The translations under genes were made by a program, and so were the position numbers. A DNA stretch of 64,000 nucleotides from Anaerolineae bacterium (GTDB lineage Bacteria > Chloroflexota > Anaerolineae > UBA3071), in contig JARYMM010000004.1 of NCBI GenBank assembly GCA_029907105.1, forward strand, positions 1 to 64,000, written 5' to 3'. The notes under the pieces are model-generated. The model saw only the letters and a list, made by a program, of their open reading frames with translations, searched no databases and was not told the DNA's origin. Below are positions 5,123 through 25,289 of the stretch, in pieces (position 1 is the first letter of the stretch; each line of letters begins with the position of its first letter).

Positions 5123-5392
5123 TCACCCGCCAGCGAGGGGAGGAAAAAGCGCTATCACATCCCCTTCCCTGATCTCGGTGGAAAGCCGGGCAGGGAATTG
5201 CTCCCAGCCCCTTCCGTTGAGGATGGCCATCACCTGGGGGTTGGGCAGGGAGAACCCGTAGCGCCTGTTCAGCCATCCGGCCACATCGCCCAGGGTAGCG
5301 CCTGCCGGGAAAGTGACCTCCTCCTGTCGGCACCCCGTCCGGTCTCTGAGGCTGGCGAGGTACTTTATCTGCACCCTGACGCTGTCTTCCAT
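5123..5392 (-). CDS. MoaD/ThiS-like beta-grasp protein
   Basis: This small protein (89 residues from the ATG at 5392) has the ubiquitin-like MoaD fold pattern: an N-terminal beta strand (VQIKYLASLRDRTG), a GATLGDVAGWL helix, and a C-terminal PPLAGG whose terminal Gly-Gly is the activation site for thiocarboxylation in molybdopterin synthesis. It lies just downstream of the aldehyde:ferredoxin oxidoreductase gene, a common arrangement for tungsten enzymes in archaea and anaerobes, so it is probably dedicated to the tungsto-pterin cofactor of that enzyme. The frame is open upstream to 5476, but the protein would then include residues read from the palindrome at 5405-5428. Confidence 0.85.
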   Translation of the reverse strand: MEDSVRVQIKYLASLRDRTGCRQEEVTFPAGATLGDVAGWLNRRYGFSLPNPQVMAILNGRGWEQFPARLSTEIREGDVIALFPPLAGG

Positions 5393-5404
5393 CACAAAGC
5401 CAGC

Positions 5405-5428
5405 AGGGGCGGACGGCCGTCCGCCCCT
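5405..5428. repeat. Perfect 24-bp palindrome at the AOR stop codon
   Basis: AGGGGCGGACGG (5405-5416) followed directly by CCGTCCGCCCCT (5417-5428). It overlaps the TAG stop of the oxidoreductase gene and separates it from the MoaD-like gene. Its ends match the TAGGGGC...GCCCCTA family seen at 1626 and 2021, with a different centre. It could stabilise the 3' end of upstream mRNA. Confidence 0.8.
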
Positions 5429-7244
5429 AATCCTCCAGGCCCAACTGGCGCACCGCTTCCGGCCTGGGCACGCCATCCTCGTCCCAGCCCCGCGCCTGGT
5501 AGTACTCGTCCAGCATGACGGCGTACATCTCTTCGGTCAAGATGCGCCCCCTGGTCGGCCCCGTGGGTATCGCCTCCTGCGTGATGCGCTCCGGCAGGAG
5601 GTCGTCCTTCCGCCGTATGCCCTCGCGGTTGAGGATCAGCCGCTCCAGGGTGTAGATGCGGGCGCCGATCTCCATCAGCTCGGGGGTGAAATCGTGGCCG
5701 GTCACCGCCGCCAGCACGTCGCCCTGGGGCTCGTCGCCGAAGCCCAGGGCGCCCCTGACCACCGTGCACAGGCCCAGGCTGTCCACGTAAGCCCGGTTGT
5801 CCTGGAGGGTCTTCACCAGGAGGCCCTTGCCCTTCAGGGCGAAGCGATCATACTGGCCGCTCTGTAGCTCGGCGCGGATCGTCCAGCCGCCCACGTTGTG
5901 GCAGGCCCCCCGGCTGGACGTGCCGTAGGTCAGGCCGTTGCCGTGAAAGCCGCGCGGGTCATAGGCGGCGAAGGGCAACCCCTTGACGGCCAGGATGTAG
6001 CGCTTCCATTCCGGCCGCTCCCGTGCCACATGGGCCATGCCCTCGGCCAGCAGGTCGCCGATGCCCCGCCGCTCACCGATCAGCCTGACCATTTCCACCA
6101 GCGCCTGGCCACTGCCGAAACGGGCTTCGATCCCCTCCGTCTCCCGGGAGGAGATCAGGCCCCGTTCGTAGAGCTCCATGGCCAGGGCGACGGCGTTGCC
6201 CGTGGAGATGGTATCTATGCCCAGCTCATCGCACAGTTGGGTGGCGGCGACGATAGCGCCGAAATCGTCCACGCCGCAATCAGGCCCCAACATGCCAATG
6301 GTTTCATATTCCACCCGCGCCTGCGCCCCGGCAAAGGGGCCTTCCTTCACCCGACACACCTTGCCACAGGCCACCGGGCAATGGTAACAGGCATAGTTCT
6401 TCACCCAATACTCCTGGCGCATGGCGTGGGCGTCTATGTTGTCCATGCCCTCGAAATAGGCGGTCTGGAAATTGCGTGTGGGCATGCAGCCCAGCTCGTT
6501 GATGATCTCGAGGTACTGGGGCGTGCCGTAGCGCGTGTGGTTGGCGCGGGTCTCCCGCAGGTTCCTGATGGCCTCCTGCCGGATTTCGGCCACCCTCTTC
6601 TCATCGGCCACGGGGATGGTGCCGCGGCCCAGCACGGCGATGCCCTTCAGCCTCTTGGAGGCCAGCACAGCTCCTGCCCCTCCCCGGCCCACGGCGCGCG
6701 AGTCCACATTGATGTAGGCCAGCCGAACCAGCCGTTCGGCCGCCGGGCCGATGCACAGCGCGCCCGCCCGGCGGTCGCCTATGGCCTCCCTCAGCGCCGC
6801 CAGAGCCCTGTCGGTGGTCCAACCCCGCCAGGGGCGGGCATCGCCGAAGGTCACCTCGCCGTCCCGGATCAGCAGATAGGTCCACTCGGCGGCCTGCCCC
6901 TCGATGATGAGCCCATCGAAGCCGCAGAACTTGAGTTGCGGGCCGAAATCCCCGCCGCTGTTGGCGCAGAGGTAGATCCCCGTCTCCGGGGACCTGGTGC
7001 TCAGCCCCATCTTGGTGGTGGAGGGCAGGTTGACGCCCGTCAGGGGGCCCGTGACCAGGAAAACCTTGTTGGCCGGGTCGAACGGCTTCACCTGCGGGCC
7101 GATTTCGTCGTAGTACATCCTGGCCGCCAGGCCGCGCGCCCCCAGCAGCTTGCGAAGCTCGTTTTCCTTCAGAGCCTCGGTGCGGCATTCCCTGCTCGAA
7201 AGGTTGATGCGCAGGATCTTTCCCAAGTAGCCACCTTGAAACAT
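5427..7244 (-). CDS. aor: Aldehyde:ferredoxin oxidoreductase (tungsten-dependent)
   Basis: AOR oxidises aldehydes to carboxylic acids with ferredoxin as acceptor, using a tungsten bis-pterin and one [4Fe-4S] cluster. From the ATG at 7244 (site TCTGAGGGAG) the protein has 605 residues. The cluster cysteines C286, C289, C293 (CYHCPVAC) and C493 (SLGLC) match the spacing known from Pyrococcus furiosus AOR, also 605 residues. The N-terminal MFQGGYLGKILRINL and the pterin-binding NSGGDFG are typical. It follows a 2-hydroxyacid dehydrogenase gene and precedes the MoaD-like gene. In this sugar locus a glyceraldehyde- or sugar-derived aldehyde is a plausible substrate, by inference. It points to anaerobic or low-potential metabolism. 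Confidence 0.93.
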   Translation of the reverse strand: MFQGGYLGKILRINLSSRECRTEALKENELRKLLGARGLAARMYYDEIGPQVKPFDPANKVFLVTGPLTGVNLPSTTKMGLSTRSPETGIYLCANSGGDFGPQLKFCGFDGLIIEGQAAEWTYLLIRDGEVTFGDARPWRGWTTDRALAALREAIGDRRAGALCIGPAAERLVRLAYINVDSRAVGRGGAGAVLASKRLKGIAVLGRGTIPVADEKRVAEIRQEAIRNLRETRANHTRYGTPQYLEIINELGCMPTRNFQTAYFEGMDNIDAHAMRQEYWVKNYACYHCPVACGKVCRVKEGPFAGAQARVEYETIGMLGPDCGVDDFGAIVAATQLCDELGIDTISTGNAVALAMELYERGLISSRETEGIEARFGSGQALVEMVRLIGERRGIGDLLAEGMAHVARERPEWKRYILAVKGLPFAAYDPRGFHGNGLTYGTSSRGACHNVGGWTIRAELQSGQYDRFALKGKGLLVKTLQDNRAYVDSLGLCTVVRGALGFGDEPQGDVLAAVTGHDFTPELMEIGARIYTLERLILNREGIRRKDDLLPERITQEAIPTGPTRGRILTEEMYAVMLDEYYQARGWDEDGVPRPEAVRQLGLED

Positions 7245-7255
7245 GGCAATCTCCC

Positions 7256-8224
7256 TCAGATGACGCGGTGGAGTGGCTCCTCGCCCCGCAGCACGGCCAG
7301 GCAGTCGCGCAGCGCACCCCACCCCATGGCGTTGATCGCCGCATCGGTGTGCGCCCCGATGTGCGGCGTGGCGATGACCTGAGGCAGGGAGAGCAGCGGG
7401 TGGTCCGGGCCGGGCGGTTCCTGGGCGAACACATCCAGGGCCGCGCCCCGCAGGTGGCCGCTCTGCAGCGCGGCGAACAGCGCCTCCTCGTCCACCAGCT
7501 CCCCCCGCGCCGTGTTAATAAGAAAGGCGCCGCGCTTCATCCGGGCCAGGAAGTCAGCATTCACCATGCCCCGCGTCTCCGGCAGGAGCGGCACGTGGAG
7601 GGAGAGGAAGTCGCTCCTGGAGATGACCTCCTCCTGTGGGCAGAGGAGCGCACCGAACTCCCGCGCGGTTGCTGCATCCACCGCCGGATCATAGGCCAGG
7701 ACGGTGCATTCGAAGCCCCGCAGGCGGCGGGCCACCTGCCTGCCCACGGCCCCCAGGCCAAGGAGGCCCACCACTTTCCCTTCCAGCGAGACGCCCTCGG
7801 CCCGCGCTGGCCGGCCGGCCCTGATCTCCTGGTTGGCCAGGGGGATCATGCGGGCCAGCGCCAGCATCAACCCGACGGTCAGTTCGGCCACGGCGGTCGC
7901 GTTCACGCCAGGCGTGTTGGTGACGACGACGCCTTTCTCGCCGGCTGCCTCCAGGTCCACCTGGTCTACCCCCACCCCGTAGCGGGCGATGACCCGCAGC
8001 CGGTCGGCTGCCTCCAGGGCAGCCCGGTCAATGATGTCCAGGCCGGCGATGTAGCCATCGCAACCCGGCAGGAGCGCCCGCACCTCGGCGGAGGTGAGCG
8101 AACGGCCGAGGGGGTTGTAGACCACCTCGCCGACGGCCGCTTCCAACTCGGCCTTGAGCCGCGGGTCGTACTTGCCAAAGGAGCGTGGGGTGACCAGCAC
8201 CCGACAGGAACGCAGATCTCTCAT
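7256..8224 (-). CDS. D-isomer-specific 2-hydroxyacid dehydrogenase (phosphoglycerate dehydrogenase-like)
   Basis: The protein (322 residues) is an NAD-dependent D-2-hydroxyacid dehydrogenase. The Rossmann motif GLGAVG is at residues 156-161, with the following NTARGELVDEEAL (active-site Arg) and PHIGAHT (active-site His) motifs; the N-terminal part has ARYGVGVDQVDL. It lacks the ACT regulatory domain of long SerA enzymes, so a catabolic hydroxyacid (glycerate-, hydroxypyruvate- or sugar-acid-related) role is as likely as serine synthesis. It starts 2 bases after the phosphoglucose isomerase gene ends, with a GGGGGAG site, and is 11 bases from the AOR gene, so all are probably one transcript. 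Confidence 0.88.
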   Translation of the reverse strand: MRDLRSCRVLVTPRSFGKYDPRLKAELEAAVGEVVYNPLGRSLTSAEVRALLPGCDGYIAGLDIIDRAALEAADRLRVIARYGVGVDQVDLEAAGEKGVVVTNTPGVNATAVAELTVGLMLALARMIPLANQEIRAGRPARAEGVSLEGKVVGLLGLGAVGRQVARRLRGFECTVLAYDPAVDAATAREFGALLCPQEEVISRSDFLSLHVPLLPETRGMVNADFLARMKRGAFLINTARGELVDEEALFAALQSGHLRGAALDVFAQEPPGPDHPLLSLPQVIATPHIGAHTDAAINAMGWGALRDCLAVLRGEEPLHRVI

Positions 8225-8226
8225 CG

Positions 8227-8808
8227 CTACTCCCCCGCACGCCAGCGCGGATTGTCCACTATGCAGGGCTGGCTATCGCGCTCTACGACCAGCTTGCGGA
8301 AGCCCTGCCTCTCGATGGTGCCGTAATCGTGCCCGGCGTAGGCCGGATAAGTGAAGAACATCACCAGGTCCTTTTCCCTGCCGGTATTGACGGAGCGATG
8401 GGCCCAGCGCGGCGGGATGTAGAGCACCTTTCCCGGACGCAGTTCCTCGACAGCCCACTCGCCTTCGGGTGTCTCCATCACCATCATGCCCTCGCCCTGC
8501 AGGCAATAATAGACCTCTGCGGTCTCCAGGACGGCGTGGAAATGCCCCTTGGTCATGAAGTACTCGTCCCCTACCTTCCCCGGGTGCACGATGGAGACGC
8601 CATGCAGCAGCTCGCCCGGCACCTCGGGCCGGTGGATCTCGTAGACCTCGTACAGAACGACGTCCTCCCGCGCCAGCATCGCCTCATAGCTGCCCTGATC
8701 GGCATATTGCCCTCTCATGGAGGAAAGCGTACGGACGATGTGATGGTCGTATTGGCTGGGAATCCCGCCCGGCAGAGCGATGCTGATGGTAAACGGACCA
8801 TCTTGCAT
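8227..8808 (-). CDS. pgiA: Cupin-type (archaeal-type) glucose-6-phosphate isomerase
   Basis: The enzyme interconverts glucose-6-phosphate and fructose-6-phosphate. It is the small cupin form, unrelated to classical PGI. The cupin metal ligands H89, H91 and E98 (GHFHAVLETAE) and H137 (PPRWAHRSVN) sit one residue from those of the Pyrococcus furiosus enzyme (H88, H90, E97, H136). YYCLQGEGMMVM and the TYPAYAGHDYG segment are also typical; 193 residues is a normal length. Cupin PGIs are best known in archaea and sporadic in bacteria. Here it sits between a Gfo/Idh dehydrogenase and a hydroxyacid dehydrogenase in a sugar cluster, so an isomerase role on a related sugar phosphate is possible. Confidence 0.87.
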   Translation of the reverse strand: MQDGPFTISIALPGGIPSQYDHHIVRTLSSMRGQYADQGSYEAMLAREDVVLYEVYEIHRPEVPGELLHGVSIVHPGKVGDEYFMTKGHFHAVLETAEVYYCLQGEGMMVMETPEGEWAVEELRPGKVLYIPPRWAHRSVNTGREKDLVMFFTYPAYAGHDYGTIERQGFRKLVVERDSQPCIVDNPRWRAGE

Positions 8809-8891: not shown

Positions 8892-9932
8892 TCAGGTCTC
8901 CCCCAACACCTCGCGGAGGTATACGGGCCGTTCCTCGCGGAATGACTTTGTGCCGGCCAAAACGCAGGCCACGGCCCACCGTCCGTCATGACCACCCACC
9001 TTTGGCGGCGTCTCCCTCTGAATGCAGTGGATGAAATGCTCCATCTCCAGGATGTAGCCCCAGGCAAACCGTTGCCCCCAGGTGCGATAGATGGGCGTGA
9101 CCAGGCCCTGATCACGGTTGGTGCATACTACCACGGCCTGGCCCCGCATCTCGCCAATCTGCATGATCCCTCGCTCGCCCACGATCTCCACCCGCGCATC
9201 GTAGCCATATTCACAGGGACATACTCCCGAGATGCAGCCCAGGGCCCCGCTCTCGAAGCGGATGTTGACCAGGACGTTGTCATAGAAGTCAGGAACCTCT
9301 ATGCCGAGGGCCTTCCCTTTGAAGTTGGCGATTTCAGCGTAGACCCGCTCCGGATTGGAGCCCATCAGCCAGCGGGTGCAGTCCCAGTCGTGGCTGTTGA
9401 CCTCGGCCAGGAGGCCGTTCGATTTGCTCAGGTCCCAGGCCCAGGGGGGCGGCAGGCCCGGCCCGTGCGACAGCGACTTGATGAGCATGGGTCGCCCGAT
9501 CTCCCCCGCCTGAAGGCGCTCATAGGCGGCCACGAATTCGGGGTCGAAGCGGCGCATAAAGCCGATCTGCAGGAAAACGCCGTGACGCTCGGCTGCGGCG
9601 ATGATCTCATCGCACTCGGCAAGGGTGAGGGCCATCGGCTTCTCCAGAAAGACGTGCTTCCCAGCCTCCGCCGCCATCACGGCCAGGGTCTTGTGCGTGA
9701 ACGTGGGGGTGGTGATGACGACCGCATCGAACCGGCCCCACTCCAGGGCCGCTTCCAGCGATTGGAAGCGCGCTTCTATGCTGAACTGGTCGGCGGCGGC
9801 GTCCAGCACATCCCTCACAGGCTCCACAATGCCCACCAGTTCCCCCGCCGGGATATGGCTGACCAGGGAATGGGCGTGCACTTTGCCCGCCCGTCCTGCG
9901 CCCACCAGACACACCCGTATCACTTTCGACAT
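8892..9932 (-). CDS. Gfo/Idh/MocA family oxidoreductase
   Basis: The protein (346 residues) has an N-terminal Rossmann fold with the GAGRAGKVHA dinucleotide motif at residues 11-20 and the FLEKPMALT segment carrying the conserved lysine of the family. The C-terminal alpha/beta domain has the SHDWDCTRWLMG motif that holds the catalytic histidine. Members oxidise polyols, inositols or sugar derivatives with NAD(P). The nearest well-known type by pattern is inositol 2-dehydrogenase, but the substrate cannot be settled here. The start has a GAGGGGG site. It is 16 bases downstream of an SDR gene and 83 bases upstream of the isomerase gene. Confidence 0.88.
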   Translation of the reverse strand: MSKVIRVCLVGAGRAGKVHAHSLVSHIPAGELVGIVEPVRDVLDAAADQFSIEARFQSLEAALEWGRFDAVVITTPTFTHKTLAVMAAEAGKHVFLEKPMALTLAECDEIIAAAERHGVFLQIGFMRRFDPEFVAAYERLQAGEIGRPMLIKSLSHGPGLPPPWAWDLSKSNGLLAEVNSHDWDCTRWLMGSNPERVYAEIANFKGKALGIEVPDFYDNVLVNIRFESGALGCISGVCPCEYGYDARVEIVGERGIMQIGEMRGQAVVVCTNRDQGLVTPIYRTWGQRFAWGYILEMEHFIHCIQRETPPKVGGHDGRWAVACVLAGTKSFREERPVYLREVLGET

Positions 9933-9948: not shown

Positions 9949-10701
9949 TCAGAGAAGAATCGAAAAACCGCCGTCCACGCTGAGGCCCTGTCCGGTGCAC
10001 CAACTGGCCTCATCGGAGGCCAGGTAGAGCACGGCGGCGGCCACGTCCTCCGGCCGCCCCAGCCGCCCCAACGGCGCCTTCTGGGCCAGTGCCTGGCGAT
10101 CGGCCTCCTCGGGCATATCGCTCAACAGCATGTCGGTGACTATGGGCCCCGGACATACGGCGTTCACGGTGATATGGTAAGGGGCCAGCTCCACGGCCAT
10201 GGCCCGGGTCAGGGAGAGCACCGCGCCCTTGGAGGCGCTGTAAGCCGCATGGCCCGGCTCCCCGACCACGGCAGCCTTGGAGGAGATATGGACGATGCGT
10301 CCCCCGCCCTGCTCGATCATGTAGGGCACAACGGCCTGGGAAGGGAAGACCACCCCCAGGACGTTCACCTCGAAGAGCCGCAGCCAGTCGGCGCGCGTCT
10401 CCTGGGTGAAGGGCGCCCGGGTGTGGATCCCGGCATTGTTGACCAGGATGTCAATGCGCCCGAACCGCCGGGCTATCTCGCCGACGGCCTCCACAACCTG
10501 CCCTTTGTCGCTCACGTCGGCCTGGAAGAAACAGGCTCGTCCGCCCTCGGCCTCGATCTGTGCCGCCGCCTTGCTGCCGGTTTCGGCGTTCTTGTCCACG
10601 ATGGCGACGGTTGCCCCTTCCGTCGCCAGCGCCCTGGCGATGGCCAGGCCGATGCCCCGGCTTCCGCCGGTGACGATGGTTACCTTCTCCCGGAATCTCA
10701 T
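9949..10701 (-). CDS. Short-chain dehydrogenase/reductase (SDR)
   Basis: This is a classical 250-residue SDR. It has the cofactor motif TGGSRGIG (residues 11-18), NNAG at 88-91, the active-site serines at 140-141, Y154 and K158 (YSASK), and a C-terminal GQGLSVDGGF. D36 after the second strand (VAIVDKN) favours NAD over NADP. Such enzymes in sugar clusters usually oxidise polyols or sugars; it was probably not recruited for fatty-acid synthesis, as there are no fatty-acid genes nearby. It has a GGGAGG site and is encoded between the FGGY kinase and the Gfo/Idh gene. Confidence 0.9.
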   Translation of the reverse strand: MRFREKVTIVTGGSRGIGLAIARALATEGATVAIVDKNAETGSKAAAQIEAEGGRACFFQADVSDKGQVVEAVGEIARRFGRIDILVNNAGIHTRAPFTQETRADWLRLFEVNVLGVVFPSQAVVPYMIEQGGGRIVHISSKAAVVGEPGHAAYSASKGAVLSLTRAMAVELAPYHITVNAVCPGPIVTDMLLSDMPEEADRQALAQKAPLGRLGRPEDVAAAVLYLASDEASWCTGQGLSVDGGFSILL

Positions 10702-10739: not shown

Positions 10740-12302
10740 TCACGCCCCTCTCCCACCAGGGGGCTGCGGCAGGGTGGCCAGCCGCCGATAGAAGGGGCCG
10801 GTTTCAGTAAGAAGAGCGATGTACTGCTGAACGCAGGCTTGATAGAAGCGATGGACCTCCGGCCGCGGCTCGATCCGGCTGATGGCCTCCACGAAGCGAC
10901 GGGCGGTGGCCTTGAGGTCGCTGAAGAGCCCCACGGCGTAGCCGGCGACGATGGCTGACCCCAGCACGGCGAACTCCTCGCGGTTCAACTGCACATAGGG
11001 AAGCCCCAGCACGTCAGCCTTGATCTGGTTCCAGAACTGGCTGCGAGCACCGCCGCCGATGACGCGCGCCTCCTTGAATTCGGTGTCCGGCAGAAGGGCC
11101 TTCTCGATGCCCAGGTAATAAGCATACTCGTAGGCGATGCCCTCCAGGATGGCGCGGTAGAAGTGGGGCTTCCGATGCGCCCAGGTGAACCCTATCCACA
11201 GCCCGCGCACGTCGGCGTCGCTGGGGCAGACGCGGCCCTGCAGATGGGGCAGGAAGAGCAGCCCATCCGAGCCGGCCGGCACCTCGCTGGCCAGGTTGTC
11301 CAGGATGGCGTAGACGTTCTCGCCCCTGGCCTGAGCCTGCTCCTTGATCTCGCTGGCCAGCTCATCCCTGAACCAGCGCAGGTTCAGCCCCCCTCCGTTG
11401 ATGTAGGCCAGGGCATACCAGAGCTCCTCCGGCACCAGCCGGGCCGTGAAGAGCGTCTTGTGCTCCACATCGGGCACGAACCTGTCCACACAGATGGCGA
11501 AGACGGAGGCCGTCCCCGCCACGTCGAAGACCAGGCCGGGCTCCACCATGGCCGCGCCCAGCATGCCTGCCGCCTGATCCCCTGCTCCGGCGGCGATGGG
11601 CGTCCCGGCCACCAGCCCGCAGTCGCGGGCTGCCTGTGGCGTCACCTTGCCGATGATCTCCCAGGGGCGCACGATGCGGGCCAGTTTCTCCGGCGGTATC
11701 CCGAACTCCCCACACAGCTCCTCATCCCAGGCTGCCCTGACCGTATCGCTGAGGCAGGAGAAATGGATGTAGGTGTAATCCATGAAAGCCTCTTCGCCCT
11801 TGAGCCCGGCCATCCGCCCGGCCACATAGCCCGCCGGAACGACGAATTTGCAGATCCTGCGGAAAACCTCGGGCCGCTCGTGCATCCACCACAGGATCTT
11901 GGGCCCGTGGGAGTAGGTTGGAGGCCCCCCGCTGCGCCGGATGATGGCCTCCTCACAGCGCCTCATCTGCTCGATGTAGGGTTTGCAGCGGGTATCCAGC
12001 CAGGAATCGTAGACCGTCGGCGTGCCCCACTCCTCGTCCACCGTGCCGATCCCGGACATCTGCCCGTCGAAAGCGATGGCCGCCACGTCCGAGGGCTTTA
12101 TGCCGCTGGATTCCAGGCACTCCCGGATGGTGCGCACGGCGGAGCCATAGAAATCCTCTGGATCCTGCTCCACCCATCCGGGCTGCGGGTAATAGAGCTT
12201 CGATTCCTCGTAGGCACTGGCAAGCAGACGTCCCTCGGCGTCGAAGATCGCTGCCTTGGTGCCCATCGTCCCCAGGTCCACGCCGATGAGGTAACTCTTC
12301 AT
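10740..12302 (-). CDS. FGGY-family carbohydrate kinase (xylulokinase-like)
   Basis: The kinase phosphorylates a sugar or ketose with ATP. At 520 residues it shows the two-domain FGGY architecture: VDLGTMGTKAAIFD (ATP phosphate loop) at the N-terminus, the AFDGQMSG segment, the GAGDQAAGMLGAAMVEPG segment at the centre, and GGGARSQFWNQIKADVLG near residue 420. The overall pattern is closest to xylulokinases, but the substrate-binding loop is not diagnostic. A GAAAGGAG site precedes the ATG at 12302. It lies between the zinc alcohol dehydrogenase and an SDR, and would phosphorylate a ketose made by the epimerase and dehydrogenases of this locus. Confidence 0.9.
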   Translation of the reverse strand: MKSYLIGVDLGTMGTKAAIFDAEGRLLASAYEESKLYYPQPGWVEQDPEDFYGSAVRTIRECLESSGIKPSDVAAIAFDGQMSGIGTVDEEWGTPTVYDSWLDTRCKPYIEQMRRCEEAIIRRSGGPPTYSHGPKILWWMHERPEVFRRICKFVVPAGYVAGRMAGLKGEEAFMDYTYIHFSCLSDTVRAAWDEELCGEFGIPPEKLARIVRPWEIIGKVTPQAARDCGLVAGTPIAAGAGDQAAGMLGAAMVEPGLVFDVAGTASVFAICVDRFVPDVEHKTLFTARLVPEELWYALAYINGGGLNLRWFRDELASEIKEQAQARGENVYAILDNLASEVPAGSDGLLFLPHLQGRVCPSDADVRGLWIGFTWAHRKPHFYRAILEGIAYEYAYYLGIEKALLPDTEFKEARVIGGGARSQFWNQIKADVLGLPYVQLNREEFAVLGSAIVAGYAVGLFSDLKATARRFVEAISRIEPRPEVHRFYQACVQQYIALLTETGPFYRRLATLPQPPGGRGA

Positions 12303-12324: not shown

Positions 12325-13368
12325 TCAGGGGATCAGGAGAACCTTGAGGTGCTCCCCCGAGGCCGCATCGGCCAGGGCCGCTCCGATCTCCCACAGCGGC
12401 CTTCGGGCCGTCACCAGGGGCTGCAGCGAGAGGCGACCGGAGGCCAGCATCTGCAACGTCTGGCGATACTGGGCGGTGTTCGATCCCGTCGTGCCGGTGA
12501 CCGTCACCTGGCCGTAGTGGATCCAATTGGAATTGACACAGGCGCGGTCGCGCCCCCCGGCCAGCCCGGCGAAGAAGTTCACCCTTCCCCGCCGCGCAGC
12601 CAGTTCCACAGCCTGCTCCTGTAGGGCCGTGGAGCCCACGGCCACGATGACCACATCGGCGCCGCGGCCATCGGTGGCCTTCAGCACCGCTTCCTTCAGG
12701 TCCTCTTTCTGGGGATCAACCACCAGGTCCGCCCCGAACTCTGCGGCCAGCCGGGCCCGATGCTCCTGCACCTCGCTGACGATGACCTGGCCTGCGCCGC
12801 TGTAGCGGGCCAGCAGGAGGTGCATCAGGCCCATCGGCCCGGCGCCCATGATGAGCATCGCTTCGCCGGGAGCGAAGCGGCAGGCCTGTTGGGCGTTGGT
12901 GCAGCAGGATAGGGGCTCGTTGAGGACTGCCTCCTCGAAGGAGAGGCTATCGGGCACCTGGACCACGTTTCCCTGGCGCACCGCCGGCGCCGTGATGCGC
13001 ATGTACTCGGCGAAGCCCCCATCGAGGGTGATGCCGAAGGCATCATAGTCGGGGCAGAGGTTGTTGTTGCCCTGCACGCACTCCCGGCACACGCCGCAGC
13101 CGAAGTTAGGGGCCACGGCCACGCGCATGCCCGGCGTCAGGTGGGCTACCCCCTCACCGACGGCGACGATCTCCCCCGCCACTTCGTGGCCCAGGATGCG
13201 TGCTGTGTCCCCGCGGATCTTGAAATGGCCGTGGTTGAAGATGCGCAGGTCGGTGGCACAGACCGAGGCGGCGCGCACCCGCATCACCGCTTCCCCCGGC
13301 CCCGGCTGGGGGGTGGGCACCTCCTCCAGCCGGATATCATGCGGGCCATGATACACCGCAGCCAGCAT
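12325..13368 (-). CDS. Zinc-dependent MDR dehydrogenase (sorbitol/threonine dehydrogenase-like)
   Basis: This is a medium-chain dehydrogenase of 347 residues from the ATG at 13368. Catalytic zinc ligands are C37, H61 and E62 (ILGHEVAG). The structural zinc cysteines are C91, C94, C97 and C105 (GCGVCREC...NLC). The Rossmann motif GAGPMGLM follows near residue 170. This pattern suits polyol or threonine dehydrogenases that oxidise a secondary alcohol with NAD. The frame extends upstream into the small lipoprotein gene, but that part lacks family similarity. In the locus it may oxidise a sugar alcohol to the ketose used by the adjacent kinase. Confidence 0.9.
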   Translation of the reverse strand: MLAAVYHGPHDIRLEEVPTPQPGPGEAVMRVRAASVCATDLRIFNHGHFKIRGDTARILGHEVAGEIVAVGEGVAHLTPGMRVAVAPNFGCGVCRECVQGNNNLCPDYDAFGITLDGGFAEYMRITAPAVRQGNVVQVPDSLSFEEAVLNEPLSCCTNAQQACRFAPGEAMLIMGAGPMGLMHLLLARYSGAGQVIVSEVQEHRARLAAEFGADLVVDPQKEDLKEAVLKATDGRGADVVIVAVGSTALQEQAVELAARRGRVNFFAGLAGGRDRACVNSNWIHYGQVTVTGTTGSNTAQYRQTLQMLASGRLSLQPLVTARRPLWEIGAALADAASGEHLKVLLIP

Positions 13369-13370
13369 GG

Positions 13371-13796
13371 CTATTCCTTCCCCAGGCAAGGCAATAACTG
13401 ATCCCGGCTCTCGATGACGATGGCCGGCCGGCCTTTGTAATCCTCGATCGTCCCTGTGATCCGCACGCACTTGCCGGCCAGGTCGGACAGGTCGAGATTG
13501 AACGAAACGCCGCAAAACGAACCGTGCTCCCGGCTGAAGATCAAGAGAGAGGCACCTTCTGCCTTGTCCACGCGCAGGACACCCCCCTCCACGCACTGAG
13601 ACTGGCCCAGATGGTCCGATGCCCAGCGCCAGGCAATGCACTCGAAGAGGCGCGTGGGCGTGGGCCCGCCTGTCACAGGTGCTTCAGAGGTAACGGTCGG
13701 GATCGGCGTAGGCCATTCGTGCTGATAGGTTCTTTTAGGCGCACAGGCCGCCAGGAGAAGTATCAGAAGCAGGATCAACACCCCTAATCTCTTCAT
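13371..13796 (-). CDS. Small predicted lipoprotein with OB-fold-like C-terminus
   Basis: The 141-residue product begins with MKRLG, a leucine-rich hydrophobic segment and a lipobox (LLAAC18), so it is probably exported and lipid-anchored. A Pro/Thr-rich linker follows. The C-terminal part (GKCVRITGTIEDYKGRPAIVI) resembles the beta-strand pattern of short OB-fold domains. No enzymatic motif is visible and the function is unknown. It ends 2 bases before the start of the zinc dehydrogenase gene and is the first gene after the terminator at 13856-13901. It may therefore start a separate transcript, although no strong promoter was recognised. Confidence 0.75.
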   Translation of the reverse strand: MKRLGVLILLLILLLAACAPKRTYQHEWPTPIPTVTSEAPVTGGPTPTRLFECIAWRWASDHLGQSQCVEGGVLRVDKAEGASLLIFSREHGSFCGVSFNLDLSDLAGKCVRITGTIEDYKGRPAIVIESRDQLLPCLGKE

Positions 13797-13921: not shown

Positions 13922-14956
13922 TCAGCCGCCGTACCTTCGTCGCAGTTGATCGAATAGAACAACCCCGATGATGAGCAGGCCCATGACCACCCGCTGAGCG
14001 AAGTCCTGCATGTTGTGGAGGTTCAGGACGTTGCGCAGGATGCCCATGATGAGAGCTCCGACCAGGGAGCCGATCACGCCGCCTTCCCCGCCGAAGAGGT
14101 TGGTCCCGCCGATGACGACGGCGGCGATACTCTGGAGCTCCATGCCATCCCCCATCAAGGCGTTGGCGGAATTCATCCGCCCGGTCAGCACCAGGCCGGC
14201 CAGGGCTGCCAGAACCCCCATGAGGACGTAGACCAGGAGCTTGGTGCGATCCACATCAATCCCCGAGACCCTGGCGGCTTCCCTGTTCCCTCCCAGGGCG
14301 AAGATAGCACGTCCGAACCCGGTGTGCTTCAGGATCACCCAGCCCAGGATGACGACGGCCAGGGCAATGAGGGGTCCTGCCGGAAACCCCAAGACGGTTC
14401 CACTGCCCAGCCAGATGATCTCCGGGGGCAGGTAAGCCTTGAGGGTCAGGGCGGTCAGGTGGGAAGGAACGGGCAATCCCCCGGTCAGGAGGAGCCCCAG
14501 GCCACGGGCTGTGACCATCATCCCCAGGGTGGCGATGAAATCAGGGATCCTGCCTTTGGTGATGATCAGGCCGTTGATGAGGCCCAGAAGGGCCCCAGAG
14601 GCCAGTCCCATCAGTATGGCCAGCCCCACAGGGATACCCCAATAGCAGTAGGCGACCGAGGCCAGCGAGCCAGCGAAAGCCACCACGGCCCCCACGGAGA
14701 GGTCAATGCCCGCCGAGATGATGACCATCGTCTGCCCCACGGCCAGGATGATGTCAGGAGCTGTGCGCTGGCCCACGTTGATGGCGTTGGTGGCGCTGAA
14801 GAAACGGGGAGCCGTGGAAACATAGTAGATGAAGAGAAGCACGGCGACCACCAGGATGATCCTGATGCCCAACCGTATCCTCAATTGAGGTGTCGCCACC
14901 CACGTCCCGACCCGCCCCAAAGCAGAAACGCCAGACTCGGAAGGATTTTTAACCAT
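13922..14956 (-). CDS. Sugar ABC transporter permease (RbsC/BPD_transp_2 family)
   Basis: This inner-membrane permease has 344 residues and about 8-10 membrane segments. The family signature is clear: SAGIDLSVGAVVAFAGSLA near residue 80 and GLINGLIITKGRIPDFIATLG in the middle. The C-terminal VIGGTNLFGGEGGVIGSLVGALI is typical of ribose/galactose-type carbohydrate permeases. The start at 14956 has an AAGGAGG site. The ATPase gene lies 20 bases upstream. Only one permease accompanies this ATPase, as in ribose systems where a single RbsC forms a homodimer. The binding protein is not adjacent; the lipoprotein at 22902-24191 is the best candidate. Confidence 0.92.
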   Translation of the reverse strand: MVKNPSESGVSALGRVGTWVATPQLRIRLGIRIILVVAVLLFIYYVSTAPRFFSATNAINVGQRTAPDIILAVGQTMVIISAGIDLSVGAVVAFAGSLASVAYCYWGIPVGLAILMGLASGALLGLINGLIITKGRIPDFIATLGMMVTARGLGLLLTGGLPVPSHLTALTLKAYLPPEIIWLGSGTVLGFPAGPLIALAVVILGWVILKHTGFGRAIFALGGNREAARVSGIDVDRTKLLVYVLMGVLAALAGLVLTGRMNSANALMGDGMELQSIAAVVIGGTNLFGGEGGVIGSLVGALIMGILRNVLNLHNMQDFAQRVVMGLLIIGVVLFDQLRRRYGG

Positions 14957-14976
14957 TTAGTGTCCTCCTTGAAAAT

Positions 14977-16467
14977 TTATCTCACTACCGCATACCTCAT
15001 GAGATCTTCCTGGGTGCCCTGGCCTCTGGCGAACTCGGCAGTGAAGGAACCGCCGGCCATCACCAGGATGCGGTCAGCCATGGCCAGAACTTCCGGCAAC
15101 TCCGAGGAGAGCATGATGATCCCCACCCCCTGCCCGGCCAGGTCATTCATCAGCCGAAAGACCTCTGCCTTGGCCCCGACGTCAATCCCCCGCGTCGGTT
15201 CGTCGAAGATGAGGATTTTGGAGCGGCTACATAGCCACTTGGCCAGGGCGACCTTTTGCTGATTGCCACCGCTGAGGAATTCGACCCTTTGGTGGAGTTT
15301 GGGGGTATGGATGCCCAATTCCCGCACATACTTCTCTGCCGCCTGCCTTTCCTCGCTGTGTTTGAGGAAGCCCAACTGACAGATTTGCTTCAGGCTGGCC
15401 AGGGTGATGTTGGCGGGGATGGAGAGGTGCGGGATCAGGCCCTCTTTCCGGTCCTCGGTCAGATAGCCGAAACCCAGTTCGATAGCCTCGGCGGGGGAGG
15501 AGATTTCGACCTTATTGCCGTCCACAAAGATCTCCCCGCTATCCATCCGGTCAACCCCGAAGAGAACACGGGCAAAGGGTGTGCGGCCTGACCCCAGAAG
15601 GCCGAAAATGCCCAGGATCTCCCCCTCGTGCAGGGTCAGGTTGAGGTCATGTAACATGCCCTCCACCGTCAAACCCCGAATCCTCAGAAGCTCTCTCCCC
15701 CGCGGCACCTCCGTCTTGGGGAATTGCTCCCCCAGCTCCCTGCCCACCATCATGCGGATCAGGGTGGCCTCATCGGCCTGCTCCACCGGCAAGGTGCCTA
15801 TCTTCTTGCCGTCCCGCAGGACGGTCACTCGCTGGCCGATCTGAGGGACTTCGGCCAGCCGATGGGAGACATAAATGACGGCTACCCCCTTCTCCTGTAG
15901 CCCGCGCAGAATATGGAAAAGCCGTTCCCGCTCCTCTTCGGACAGGGCTGATGTGGGTTCGTCCAATAACAGGATCTGCACATTCATGGACAGCGCCTTG
16001 GCGATCTCGGTCAATTGCCGTTCGCCCATGCTCAGGTCGCGGACGCGCTGCCGGGGGTCAATGTCAACCCCCAGATCATCCAGGATGTTCCTGGCCCGGG
16101 AGAAGGTTTCCGCCCAATCCACAGTCCCCAATGGTTTGCGCTTCGGAAGCCTGCCCAGGAAGATGTTCTCAGCCACGCTGGTGCTGGGGATGAGACTGAG
16201 CTCCTGGTATACCATGCCTATCCCCAGCTCCCAGGCATGGTGAGGGTTGAGGATCTCAACCTCCTGGCCGCGCAGAGTGATGCGGCCGCTGTCCTTGGGG
16301 AGAGAGCCACTGAGGATTTTCATAAAGGTGGACTTGCCCGCCCCGTTCTCGCCCAAAAGGACGTGGATTTCCCCCTCAAAGAGATCGAAATCCACGTGAT
16401 CGAGGGCGTGAACGCCGGGGTAACTTTTGTCAATGCCCTCAGCCCGCAAGATCAATGAAGAAGACAT
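14977..16467 (-). CDS. Sugar ABC transporter ATP-binding protein (RbsA/MglA family)
   Basis: A 496-residue double-ABC ATPase. The first domain has Walker A at G39-T47 (GENGAGKST), the signature LSMGERQL and Walker B LLLDEPTSAL. The second has the degenerate Walker A GLLGSGRTPF usual for RbsA-type proteins, with the signature LSGGNQQKVALAKWL and IFDEPTRGIDVGAK. It energises import of a monosaccharide through the permease encoded 20 bases downstream. The start has an AAGGAGG site. A 266-base gap separates it from the upstream SDR gene, so it may have its own promoter. Confidence 0.93.
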   Translation of the reverse strand: MSSSLILRAEGIDKSYPGVHALDHVDFDLFEGEIHVLLGENGAGKSTFMKILSGSLPKDSGRITLRGQEVEILNPHHAWELGIGMVYQELSLIPSTSVAENIFLGRLPKRKPLGTVDWAETFSRARNILDDLGVDIDPRQRVRDLSMGERQLTEIAKALSMNVQILLLDEPTSALSEEERERLFHILRGLQEKGVAVIYVSHRLAEVPQIGQRVTVLRDGKKIGTLPVEQADEATLIRMMVGRELGEQFPKTEVPRGRELLRIRGLTVEGMLHDLNLTLHEGEILGIFGLLGSGRTPFARVLFGVDRMDSGEIFVDGNKVEISSPAEAIELGFGYLTEDRKEGLIPHLSIPANITLASLKQICQLGFLKHSEERQAAEKYVRELGIHTPKLHQRVEFLSGGNQQKVALAKWLCSRSKILIFDEPTRGIDVGAKAEVFRLMNDLAGQGVGIIMLSSELPEVLAMADRILVMAGGSFTAEFARGQGTQEDLMRYAVVR

Positions 16468-16578
16468 GGCTTACACAGCCTCCTTGGCTGGATGAAGTTT
16501 CCCATTTTCTCTACAAACAGGGCAAGATTTTGCCTGTCACCTTAAGCCAAACGAAGGGCCTCCTGCTCGCTCCCGCAT

Positions 16579-16616
16579 GAGATTCTTCGCTCCACTTCGT
16601 TCCGCTCAGAATGACA
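16579..16616. repeat. GAGATxCTTCGCT...CGCTCAGxATGACA repeat, copy 1
   Basis: Copy of a short dispersed repeat in the 266-base gap between the ATPase and SDR genes (16468-16733). It starts GAGATTCTTCGCT and ends CGCTCAGAATGACA; a divergent second copy is at 50870-50933. The rest of the gap shows no gene. The CAGGGCAA / TTGCCTG imperfect hairpin near 16520-16540 is the only other structure seen. Confidence 0.55.
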
Positions 16617-16733
16617 TACTTGTCGGTTCGAGGCAAAGCTTCGCCGGGATTATACCACCGTCCCCGCTTCATGGCCAAATGGTCCAGGAGGAAAAGGCCC
16701 CCTTTCTCTTTCCGGACGGTTCTGGAGGGCCGC

Positions 16734-17495
16734 TCACTGGGCCGTGTACCCCCCGTCTATGGAGAGGATCGAACCTGTGGCGTAGGGGGATTCGTCGGAA
16801 GCCAGATAGAGGATGCCGGCGGCGATTTCCTCTGGCCGGCCCAGCCTGTTGGCAGGACGAACCTGTTCCAGGGCACGCCGTGCGGCGGCCGGGTCTGGCG
16901 CCCTTTCCACCGCCGCCTTCACCAGAGGAGTCTCTGTGGTGCCAGGACACACGCAGTTGACCCTGACATGATAAGGGGCAAAATCTACGGCCATGCTCCG
17001 GGTCAAAGCGATGACCCCGCCCTTGGACACATTATAGGCAACCTGATTCTTGATGCCCACGATCCCGGCTTCGGAGCTGACATTCACGATGGAGCCACCG
17101 CCTCCCCTGATCATCTCGGGGATGCAGTACTTGGAACAGAGGAAAACGCCTTTGAGATTGACGTCCAGGATGCGGTCCCAATCCTCCTCCGATGTCTCCA
17201 CAGCATTGGCCTGCATGTAGATGCCGGCATTGTTGACCAGGATGTCCAGTTTGCCGTACGTTTCAACGGCGGTCCTGGCCATTCTCTCGGCATCGGCCGC
17301 CCTGGACACATCCACCTGGACGAAGATAGCCTCTCCGCCGCCTGCCTTGATCAGGCTAACCGTTTCCGCCCCCATGTGCGGATCGCGGTCGGCGACCACC
17401 ACTTTGGCCCCCTCCCTGGCGAAGAGAAGGGCAGTGGAACGACCGATCCCTGCCCCTGCGCCTGTAATGATGGCGACCTTACCAGCCAGCCTCAT
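16734..17495 (-). CDS. Short-chain dehydrogenase/reductase (SDR)
   Basis: A classical SDR of 253 residues from the ATG at 17495. It has TGAGAGIG (11-18), NNAG (88-91), active-site serines about 140-141, Y154 and K158 (YNVSK), and the D36-containing VVVADRD suggesting NAD. The C-terminal [13 protein letters not shown] is typical. It is 17 bases downstream of a sugar permease gene, so it is probably co-expressed with the second ABC module and acts on the imported sugar or polyol. It resembles the SDR at 9949 only at family level; the two probably act at different steps. Confidence 0.9.
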
Positions 17496-17512
17496 TTTTC
17501 CCTCCCTGAATG

Positions 17513-18490
17513 TCACTTGATGATCTTTATCCTCTTTCTGTCTATTGTGGCGACGCTCATGCCCAGGGCGATCAAGCCGAAGACGATCATCTGGGTATCG
17601 CGGCCGATGGCCAGCATGAGCATTCCCGCCTGAATCCACGTAATGATGATCACCCCCAGCAGGGTTCTGTGTGGGCCTCCGACACCACCGGTGAGAGCTG
17701 TGCCGCCGGCGACCACGCTGGCGAAAAGCGGTATGGGCATATCCGCACCGATCAACATGGAGCCACCCCCCAACTGGGCCATATACAAAACCCCCGCCAA
17801 CCCCGCCAGAAAGCCGCTGAGCATGAAGACATAGATTCTATGCCTCTCCACGTTGATGCCCGAAAGCCCGGCCCCGATCAGGTTTCCTCCCACCGCATAC
17901 GTGCGCCTTCCAAATGGCGTGTATATGGCTATGAAGGTGCTGATCAGCCAGATGCCTATCGCCCAATAGAAAATCGAGGGTAAACCGGCGATGAAGGTCG
18001 TCGCCAGGGACCTGAAAGTCTCATTATATATGATGTGGAGGAAGCCCTTGGAGAGATATAGCGCAGCCCCCTCAACGACCACAGAAACGCCAAGGGTGGC
18101 CATAAAAGAGGGGACATTGAACCTGGCCACGAAGAGCCCGTTGATAAAACCGAGCCCCGTGCTGATGATTAAAGCTAAAGGGATCACCAGGAACCCAAGC
18201 TTGTCCATGTACAACACGCACAGGAGCGCTGCCAGCTTCAACAGGCTTACCACCGAGAAGTCAAAAGAGCCCATCATGACCACGAAGGTTAATCCACAGG
18301 CGGCTATCAGGAAGTAGGACATGGCATACACCAAAGTGATCATCCCATCATGGCTGAGGAAGAACGGGTTTACCGCCTGGAATCCGACGATAATCGCTAT
18401 GGCGGCGACGATCGGTCCGACCGTGGTCATATTTCTTCGCAGCCAACCCTGGGAAAACAGCGGTCTGGCCATCGCTTTTTCACCCCTCAC
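17513..18490 (-). CDS. Sugar ABC transporter permease (BPD_transp_2 family)
   Basis: This membrane permease of 325 residues has the carbohydrate-uptake signatures: [18 protein letters not shown], then [21 protein letters not shown], and [21 protein letters not shown] near the C-terminus. Its start overlaps the stop of the preceding permease by 4 bases, indicating translational coupling. An alternative ATG lies 18 bases inside (18472). With the second permease it would form a heterodimeric channel served by the ATPase at 19452. Confidence 0.9.
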
Positions 18491-19455
18491 GTGATTGTGA
18501 CCCCCTTCAACCCCCTGGAACCCACGACAATGGACACGATGAGCAACAGGCCCACCAGGAGTTGTACGGCCTCGGGATGCAGTAACGAAAGCAGCAATCC
18601 CCTGTAGACCACCGCATACGTCAGCGCGCCGAGGATCGTCCTCTGGGGCCCGCCGCTCCCCCCGACGAGAGGCGTTCCACCCAGGACTATGGCCACAAGC
18701 GGTCCAACGACATTGTTTAGATTGAGCTCCACAGGCGCTGCGCCGCCGAGATGGGGGAACAGGATAACCGCCCCTACGCCTGTAAACAGCCCGCTCAAGG
18801 TGAAAGCCAGGATTTTGTGCTTATCCACGTTTATTCCGGCCAGTTGAGCCCCTTCCTCATTCGATCCAATGGCATATATATATGTGCCTATCCTGGTGCG
18901 TTTCATGACGAATATGGCGGCGAGGATGATGGGGATAGACCACAAAAAGGCTGTGGGCAGGTGGGGGATCAGCGACGCGGTGATAAAAGCATATTCGCGC
19001 ACAGACCTGGGGTAGCCCCCCGAAAGCGTAGCCGTTATTCCCCAATAGGTCACCAGCAAACTCAAGGTCAGGATGAAGGAAGGGATTTTCGCCTTGACCT
19101 GTATGACGCCAATGAGGAACCCTGTCACCAGCCCCAGCAGGGGTATGACAAGGATGGAGAACATCCCCGTTATCGGCATGAGAAGCCACACGAGGATCCC
19201 TCCCAGCATCCAGATGCCCACATAGGACAAGTCCAACGACCCGGTCACCACCACAATCGAGGGACCCAGGGCAAACAAGGTGAGCGTGACAAACTGCTTC
19301 AGAATCGTGGAGAAGTTTAAGGGGGTCAGAAACCTTTCTGGATACAACGCCGAAAACAGCACCACAAAACCGATCAAGGCCAGGATCACAGGGTGAGTCT
19401 TCAGGGTTTGAATTAGGACCTGAGGCACAACGTTCTTTCTGGCTGGGTTCTTCAT
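18487..19455 (-). CDS. Sugar ABC transporter permease (BPD_transp_2 family)
   Basis: The 322-residue partner permease has VVTGSLDLSYVGIWMLGGILV, LIGVIQVKAKIPSFILTLS, and VLGGTPLVGGSGGPQRTILG as the signature segments of the family. Both ends overlap neighbouring genes by 4 bases (ATPase upstream, second permease downstream), a tight arrangement typical of an operon making subunits in fixed ratio. Substrate cannot be predicted from the permease alone. Confidence 0.9.
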   Translation of the reverse strand: MKNPARKNVVPQVLIQTLKTHPVILALIGFVVLFSALYPERFLTPLNFSTILKQFVTLTLFALGPSIVVVTGSLDLSYVGIWMLGGILVWLLMPITGMFSILVIPLLGLVTGFLIGVIQVKAKIPSFILTLSLLVTYWGITATLSGGYPRSVREYAFITASLIPHLPTAFLWSIPIILAAIFVMKRTRIGTYIYAIGSNEEGAQLAGINVDKHKILAFTLSGLFTGVGAVILFPHLGGAAPVELNLNNVVGPLVAIVLGGTPLVGGSGGPQRTILGALTYAVVYRGLLLSLLHPEAVQLLVGLLLIVSIVVGSRGLKGVTIT

Positions 19456-20996: not shown

Positions 20997-21271
20997 CCAT
21001 CCTCTCCGCTATCCTGCTCCGAAAATGTCATCTCCGCCCACCGGCCTTGGTCTGGCGGCGATTGAACGTGATCACACCATGCTCAAAGTAGCAGATAGGG
21101 CCAAAAGGATAGGGGGCGGATACGCTTCCCTCGCCGCCGCCTGGCTGCTTGCTCATGGAGCGGAATCCTCGGCAGGCTGCGCCCGCCTCAGACCTCGCCG
21201 CGTTCCGCCCCCCGTGCTCGCTGCGCGCCGGGTTCTGTTTATCCCACGCGCCAACAAACGGTTTCAGGTCC

Positions 21272-22771: not shown

Positions 22772-22854
22772 GTCGAACCTCCTTCGGATCATGGCCCTAT
22801 CTGCTAGTCTGAGCACGGCTGCTACATAATGAATCGGCTGTGGTTCCTTCAGGG

Positions 22855-22888
22855 GGTAAGGATCGCCTCCTTGGAGGCGATCCTTACC
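22855..22888. repeat. Perfect 16-bp hairpin between two binding-protein genes
   Basis: GGTAAGGATCGCCTCC (22855-22870) and GGAGGCGATCCTTACC (22873-22888) around TT. It is 14 bases after the stop of the lipoprotein gene at 22902. No T-run follows on the minus strand, so it is more likely an mRNA-stabilising or attenuating hairpin than a full terminator; it could keep binding-protein mRNA in excess. Confidence 0.6.
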
Positions 22889-22901
22889 GACAACATTCCT
22901 A

Positions 22902-24191: not shown

Positions 24192-24385
24192 GTTTTACTC
24201 CTCCTTGATTTTCCTTCGGGCGCATACGCCCAAACTGAGGGTTTACCCGCTGATTACGAAGCCTGTATCCGCCGTTTCCGTTTGCCTGGACCTCACCTCC
24301 TTCCGCCAATTTCGGCCTGCCTGGGACAGATTAAGCGCCTGCCCGATCTGCCCCTGACTGCACCCCGTTCAGCCGTAAATCACGA

Positions 24386-25249: not shown

Positions 25250-25289
25250 CTTGACCTCCCCAATGGGATGCTGCTGACGGCACAAAAGC

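Follow-up and report, generated by a model that had tools for sequence, protein, structure and literature searches.

A gene pair encoding an aldehyde:ferredoxin oxidoreductase (AOR) and a small MoaD-like protein was analyzed in a 64,000-nucleotide stretch of DNA, here called the window, from Anaerolineae bacterium (assembly GCA_029907105.1, contig JARYMM010000004.1, positions 1 to 64,000). Judged from sequence, the pair is a Class I WOR together with a MoaD/ThiS-type sulfur carrier, for which the published name is WorX. The explanation that best accounts for the data is that the small protein probably carries sulfur for tungstopterin and is expressed together with an AOR that serves sugar or polyol catabolism. 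A 134.7-kb contig begins with the window, and the genome comprises 3.78 Mb in 133 contigs with a completeness of 92.7%. The two genes are as follows.

5427-7244, minus strand: AOR-type tungsten aldehyde:ferredoxin oxidoreductase (Class I WOR large subunit), 605 aa, PF02730 and PF01314
5123-5392, minus strand: predicted MoaD-like sulfur carrier (WorX-type), 89 aa, ATG at 5392, C-terminal GG

The AOR and its small partner

On the minus strand the AOR gene comes first, followed by 34 bases between the open reading frames (ORFs) and then by the MoaD-like gene. The AOR contains both AFOR domains, N-terminal (PF02730, 212.7 bits) and C-terminal (PF01314, 423.6 bits), and aligns over its full length with the Pyrococcus furiosus AOR (1aor, 424 bits). 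Residues C286, C289, C293 and C493 line up with the cluster cysteines of the P. furiosus enzyme and are kept in 75, 76, 76 and 76 of 76 AOR rows, respectively. The catalytic Glu and His (E314 and H449) are conserved in the AOR alignment, and T241 and Y428 are, as read off the P. furiosus alignment, the counterparts of Thr243 and Tyr427, which are named for WORs in PMC13328260. No Wor subunit gene (WorS, WorN or WorABC) was found among the flanking genes assigned by profile, the rest of the run having been read by eye, which points to a single large subunit.

The small protein matches PF02597 (51 bits, cut-off 22.5), passes TIGR01687 moaD_arch (58.4 bits, cut-off 49.5) and ends in PPLAGG. Its AlphaFold2 model is a confident beta-grasp fold (pLDDT 92.2), for which the top PDB matches in Foldseek were 6jbz_B (mycobacterial molybdopterin synthase), SAMP1 3po0 and P. 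furiosus 1vjk. It shares its fold (TM 0.67 by query length) and the GG tail with E. coli-type MoaD (PDB 1fm0_D), and G88 and G89 are invariant across 25 aligned AOR-linked proteins, the window copy included. Two statements of a first-pass annotation, made by a model from the letters alone, are thus borne out: a MoaD-like protein is encoded directly after an AOR, and the cluster cysteines of that AOR match the Pyrococcus enzyme in position.

The second place of SAMP1 by fold, together with a sub-threshold match to the NCBIfam SAMP1 model (37.4 vs 60 bits), raises the question of whether the small protein becomes conjugated to AOR or to other proteins, as a ubiquitin-like modifier or regulator would. 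Ubiquitin-like proteins (Ubls) of Thermococcus kodakarensis are also conjugated to target proteins (PMC11323500). However, there is no conjugation gene beside the small protein in the window, the tail and fold suit sulfur carriers equally well, and the AOR linkage points to cofactor work. A modifier is therefore considered improbable.

Comparison with described systems

Pairing of AOR and MoaD is already described in the literature, and the proposal of a role in the tungsten cofactor dates to 2006, when it was made by Iyer, Burroughs and Aravind (PMC1779556) for AOR-linked MoaD. As in the window, the MoaD genes in that study were strictly adjacent to AOR and, in some organisms, apart from the molybdenum cofactor (Moco) operon. 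However, the neighborhoods it describes often include MoeB, whereas the window has sugar genes and no adjacent MoeB. More recently, Putumbaka et al. 2026 (PMC13328260) named WorX, predicted a role in pterin biosynthesis and called its function unknown. Their WorX is, like the window gene, a ThiS-like gene beside a single-subunit WOR (Class I), and it is missing in archaeal WORs of one class. The window WorX lies in a sugar cluster, whereas the main text of that paper does not contain the terms "sugar", "kinase", "Chloroflex" or "Spirochaet". The term "moae" occurs 0 times, and no statement linking WorX with sugar clusters or with MoaE content was found there.

The aorABCDE operon of Aromatoleum aromaticum (PMC6365974) also includes MoaD-like genes, aorD and aorE, whose products were not in the purified enzyme. 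That AOR has three subunits, whereas neither AorA nor AorC was found among the profile-named adjacent genes in the window.

The closest functional evidence comes from T. kodakarensis, where UblC (TK1065) is encoded beside the AOR TK1066 and where the Ubls, TK1065 included, act in tungsten-cofactor synthesis (PMC11323500). When the AOR-adjacent Ubl was deleted, about 54% of AOR activity remained, whereas FOR activity in pyruvate medium was lost altogether (PMC11323500). Because the loss of one Ubl halves AOR and abolishes FOR activity, such proteins need not be dedicated to the enzyme next to them. By analogy, this experiment speaks for a tungsten-cofactor role of the window protein and disfavors strict dedication. 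It should be noted that T. kodakarensis is an archaeon with an adjacent radical SAM gene and demonstrated redundancy, and that the role in tungsten enzymes was measured there.

Tungsten uptake, cofactor genes and the proposed mechanism

The genome encodes a WtpA above the curated cut-off (400.6 vs 355 bits), with WtpB-like and WtpC-like proteins slightly under theirs (314.7 vs 340 and 433.9 vs 440 bits). The genes moaC-moaD-moaE adjoin these Wtp-type importer genes on the downstream side (locus C50). Use of tungsten fits the host genome because WtpA stands beside moaC-moaD-moaE, and the presence of WtpA makes tungsten at the AOR active site plausible. MoaA, six proteins with a MoCF domain (two of them MoeA-like) and two MoeB/ThiF-type E1s were also found. 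Three PF12849 matches were not counted as a TupA importer; by eye, they lie beside Pst-like permeases or a UppP-like gene. A Moco or tungsten riboswitch near AOR or moa genes was not found at the Rfam gathering score in 8 sources, which gave tRNAs only. In a separate observation, the second MoeA-like protein passes PRK14498 (772 vs 534 bits) and adjoins the first MoeA; this pair might split molybdenum and tungsten insertion.

At E up to 1, a profile search of the genome gave six ThiS-family matches, and five exceed the cut-off. The best is the canonical MoaD between MoaC and MoaE; of the others, by eye, one (C45, next to a TtuA-like gene) resembles a carrier for tRNA thiolation and one (C71) a TGS domain. 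A single MoaE (PF02391) was recognized in the genome, and it has an adjacent MoaD of its own. There are seven AFOR_N matches, and an adjacent MoaD match was found for the window AOR (1/7) and for none of the other six (0/6). MoeB, MoaE and MoeA are not among the neighbors of the window AOR, which are dehydrogenases and sugar genes.

These data allow the following mechanism to be proposed. A MoeB/ThiF-type E1 would adenylate the C-terminal glycine of the small protein, which would then take up sulfur as a thiocarboxylate. Together with the one recognized MoaE of the cell, the small protein would supply the dithiolene sulfurs of the pterin, itself a product of MoaA and MoaC, and MogA/MoeA would insert tungsten imported by the WtpABC-type system. 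The tungstopterin would be delivered mainly, but not solely, to the AOR of the same operon, and co-transcription would raise the supply of sulfur carrier while the sugar operon is on. The AOR would oxidize an aldehyde derived from a sugar or polyol, with ferredoxin as electron acceptor, and the neighboring 2-hydroxyacid dehydrogenases may process the resulting acid.

The first-pass annotation had gone further and proposed a tungsten-specific, dedicated pterin supply module, which would mean that the small protein serves only the neighboring AOR. Adjacency to AOR, co-inheritance with it and the separate canonical MoaD beside moaE would all fit such a module. The checks proposed there also came out in its favor, as a tungstate importer with WtpA over the cut-off exists, so that a lack of tungstate uptake does not apply, and MoaA and moaC-moaD-moaE are present. 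However, the small protein would have to share the genome's single MoaE, none of the six other AOR-family genes has a MoaD next to it, and the effect on FOR in T. kodakarensis in pyruvate medium reaches beyond AOR (PMC11323500). Pairing with an ordinary MoaE had been named as evidence against the module, and this applies in part: an ordinary MoaE exists and is the sole candidate partner, though it has a MoaD of its own. Since the only MoaE is the ordinary one, "tungsten-specific" can at most describe when and where the sulfur carrier is made, and strict dedication is unlikely.

Co-inheritance of the pair

Relatives were collected by a scan of one genome per species, which gave 73 AOR loci. Linkage was counted on 70 of these, as L070, L083 and L090 have less than 300 bp downstream of AOR. 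A same-strand MoaD lies within 200 bp of AOR in 35 loci, and a MoaD is found anywhere in the locus in 37; in the two additional loci (L043 and L082) it is in the cluster but not adjacent to AOR. All listed AOR-linked MoaD copies end in GG. The nearest relative, L035 from Anaerolineales, has an AOR with 82% identity, and the window groups with it on the AOR tree inside a Spirochaetota-rich clade.

Tree and distance counts used AOR rows with an aligned length of at least 480 (L098, L100, L103 and L107 were left out), and identical (L068/L069) and near-identical (L039/L040) AORs were all retained. AOR and MoaD distances were correlated (r 0.864, n=35; maximum of 2000 permutations 0.26) and MoaD presence was clustered on the AOR tree (11 changes vs 23.6 in shuffles), figures that include near-identical rows and shared ancestry.

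The same counts bear on whether the MoaD-like gene is a neutral passenger that rides with AOR in a mobile cluster and has no specific role. Presence is patchy, with adjacency in half of the loci and repeated change on the tree, and the term mobile gene cluster was used by Iyer et al. (PMC1779556). However, the GG tail is invariant across divergent copies, and co-inheritance is seen even where the genes are not adjacent (L043 and L082). A neutral passenger is thus very improbable.

Relatives without MoaE

For cofactor genes, 24 genomes were picked from the 73 loci for spread, 18 with MoaD at the locus and 6 without. MoaC was found in 23 of these genomes and ThiS/MoaD-like genes in all 24, whereas MoaE (PF02391) was found in 5 (two archaeal and three spirochaete, two of these weak). 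The MoaE-less set covers two spirochaete and one deltaproteobacterial single-scaffold assemblies and the isolate Moorella sulfitireducens. Runs of N in the G002 and G003 scaffolds appear as X in a number of translated ORFs, and small losses may have occurred there.

Several results weigh against a tungstopterin carrier that works with MoaE. PF02391 MoaE was not seen in 19 of the 24 sampled AOR genomes, so that pairing of MoaD with MoaE is not the general mechanism, or else the MoaE of these genomes is too divergent to be seen. No MoaD is present in 33 of the 70 loci, and AOR therefore does not need one nearby. The near-identical rows and shared ancestry within the correlation and tree figures reduce what these can carry, and molybdenum may take the place of tungsten in the AOR. 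Additionally, unlike E. coli-type MoaD, the window protein does not adjoin moaE and fails the TIGR01682 MoaD equivalog (37.4 vs 66.15 bits), which the moaCDE-linked MoaD of the same genome passes (69.3 bits).

One explanation of these results is a MoaE-independent sulfuration of the pterin, in which AOR-linked carriers use another partner, e.g. the MOSC protein encoded next to moaC, and in which the window copy was acquired and now stands beside a canonical MoaD-MoaE. In addition to the counts of MoaE, MoaC and ThiS/MoaD-like genes given above, a MOSC protein was found at the MoaC locus in 14 of 23 genomes, 13 of the 18 MoaE-less and 1 of the 5 MoaE-bearing. Published cases point the same way: Geobacter metallireducens has MoaD but no MoaE, with the mechanism given as unknown (PMC2700814), and in Dehalobacter, which lacks both MoaD and MoaE, MOSC proteins were proposed as molybdopterin synthase (PMC4751268). 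However, the association of MOSC with MoaE absence has a Fisher P of 0.056, G002, G003, G009, G014 and G017 have neither MoaE nor a MOSC by MoaC, and the genome of the window itself has a MoaE. A correlation of AOR-linked MoaD with MoaE absence was not found (MoaE in 3/18 genomes with linked MoaD and 2/6 without, P 0.57).

Remote MoaE proteins also have to be considered. Two Spirochaetales genomes (G004 and G005) encode divergent MoaE-like proteins of 120 aa (L177 3348-3710 and L178 3117-3479) that match PF02391 weakly, at about 27-35 bits, and these may be a sign that remoter MoaE proteins elsewhere are missed. When they were searched against the ORFs of the fetched loci (179 records) just those two were found, and a search of the same ORFs with the MoaE of the window's own genome found only itself and one 13.9-bit match. 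MoaE-independent sulfuration is an unlikely account of the window pair. A broader version is similarly unlikely. In it, a molybdopterin synthase that operates without MoaE would have AOR/WOR-linked MoaD-like proteins as its working carriers and the MOSC beside moaC, or an unrecognized protein, as their partner; tungstopterin would usually be made by this route in anaerobic bacteria that have a sugar-linked AOR, and a carrier would accompany WOR genes into new hosts, such as this Anaerolineales-like bacterium. A tungstopterin carrier working with the recognized MoaE is still the preferred explanation for the window.

Of the extra MoaD-like sites retrieved, 4 of 6 in G002, 4 of 5 in G003 and 3 of 7 in G010 have a WOR gene no more than 1.5 kb away; G003 and G010 each have one further weak MoaD-like match outside these sites. 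Another MoaD-like gene of G002 (L160, 3329-4285) adjoins a Prok-JAB protease gene (PF14464) and, by eye, an O-acetylhomoserine-sulfhydrylase-like gene, and it is probably a separate sulfur-carrier system for amino-acid synthesis. A connection of MoaE absence with WorX was not found in the literature search. The host genome, in which seven AOR-family genes stand beside a single WorX, a single canonical MoaD-MoaE pair and a single Wtp importer, can now be set against relatives in which no PF02391 MoaE was seen, and the cluster and its relatives provide concrete material on the function of WorX and on MoaE-less anaerobes.

Sugar setting of the gene cluster

The genes around the pair are listed below, with the number of related AOR loci in which a relative was found. 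These numbers are lower bounds, as locus lengths vary and many loci end at contig ends.

4000-5109, minus strand: Ldh_2 family malate/L-lactate-type dehydrogenase (PF02615, 384 bits), after MoaD; 0/73 loci
7256-8224, minus strand: D-2-hydroxyacid dehydrogenase family protein (PF02826/PF00389); 42/73 loci
8227-8808, minus strand: cupin-type phosphoglucose isomerase family (PF06560; 190 bits to PDB 1j3p); 53/73 loci
8892-9932, minus strand: Gfo/Idh/MocA dehydrogenase, inositol-dehydrogenase-like; 33/73 loci
9949-10701, minus strand: SDR dehydrogenase; 19/73 loci
10740-12302, minus strand: FGGY carbohydrate kinase (PF00370/PF02782); 41/73 loci
12325-13641, minus strand: Zn-dependent alcohol dehydrogenase family, by eye, true start probably internal; 38/73 loci
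13371-13796, just before the run 13922-26132: small lipoprotein-like ORF, by eye
13922-26132, minus strand: rest of the same-strand run, with ABC transporter genes, an SDR and two substrate-binding proteins, names mostly by eye
13922-14956, minus strand: ORF of the run matching PF02653
24386-25303, minus strand: ketose 3-epimerase (290 bits to D-tagatose 3-epimerase)
25290-26132, minus strand: GntR-type regulator, by eye

No NCBIfam equivalog cut-off is reached by the FGGY kinase, and the PDB entries that it matches best differ in function. Across several bacterial phyla, and in archaea too, related AORs have FGGY kinase, cupin phosphoglucose isomerase and dehydrogenase genes as neighbors. In the archaeal relatives (Wolframiiraptor, Geocrenenecus and others) the cupin isomerase comes directly after AOR and the locus lacks a MoaD. 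The other six AOR loci of the window's genome served as a control, and these match just an SDR, a sugar ABC transporter and a TIM-barrel protein, in one locus each. The conserved sugar neighbors, the ketose 3-epimerase and a ribose-type binding protein encoded within the same-strand run support oxidation of a sugar- or polyol-derived aldehyde by the AOR cluster. This agrees with the earlier suggestion that the pair is attached to sugar oxidation, as the sugar-catabolic setting is conserved in relatives.

The Wolframiiraptor paper of 2022 (PMC9246946) made a general link of such enzymes with sugar use, and the terms "operon", "synten" and "gene neighborhood" are absent from its main text. No published description of a conserved AOR sugar cluster was found in the literature search. 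The cluster gives the tungsten enzyme a physiological setting outside amino-acid fermentation.

Two other AOR-family genes of the genome were also inspected by eye. One (L019, contig C95) follows a ribose-type ABC transporter operon with an aldehyde dehydrogenase gene, and the other (L018, contig C51) lies among aminotransferase and aldehyde dehydrogenase genes. The same genome seems to have both sugar-side and amino-acid-side AORs.

A dispersed palindrome between the genes

The following element lies between the AOR and MoaD-like genes.

5405-5428, no strand assigned: perfect palindrome, 24 bp, arms of 12, loop-free, member of a dispersed family

The first-pass annotation had described the two genes as separated only by a perfect palindrome. 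The palindrome is indeed perfect, and "only" is nearly right: it overlaps the AOR stop codon by two bases and occupies part of the 34-base spacing. It is the single loop-free palindrome with arms of at least 11 in the window, and none was found in each of 20 first-order resamplings. A 60-nt stretch with the palindrome folds into an RNA hairpin of -27.1 kcal/mol (z -1.93). A search allowing at most one mismatch suggested that the palindrome was unique, but this was misleading, since the arms vary together. The pattern AGGGGC-N8..14-GCCCCT occurs at 46 genome sites, compared to 6 for the reversed control pattern. In 29 of the 46 the inner arms are perfectly matched while their letters differ, and 37 have at most one mismatched inner pair. 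A further copy of the family lies within the window at 2021-2045, inside a HisI/HisE-like coding ORF.

In the nearest relative, L035, there is no palindrome between AOR and MoaD, as the MoaD start abuts the AOR end and leaves no room. A role as a module-specific regulatory element or terminator was rejected, given the dispersed family, its absence in L035 and the lack of a long T run after it. Because of the 46 like sites in the genome and the absence from L035, the palindrome is most likely a dispersed repeat that lies between the two genes by happenstance.

Other features of the window

ARAGORN called a tRNA-Gly at 2562-2653, within a purH-like ORF. This call is probably false because Rfam at the gathering score reports no tRNA in the window. 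A HisF-like protein at 811-1620 seems to contain an in-frame insertion, about 20 residues long, whose letters resemble repeat DNA in translation.

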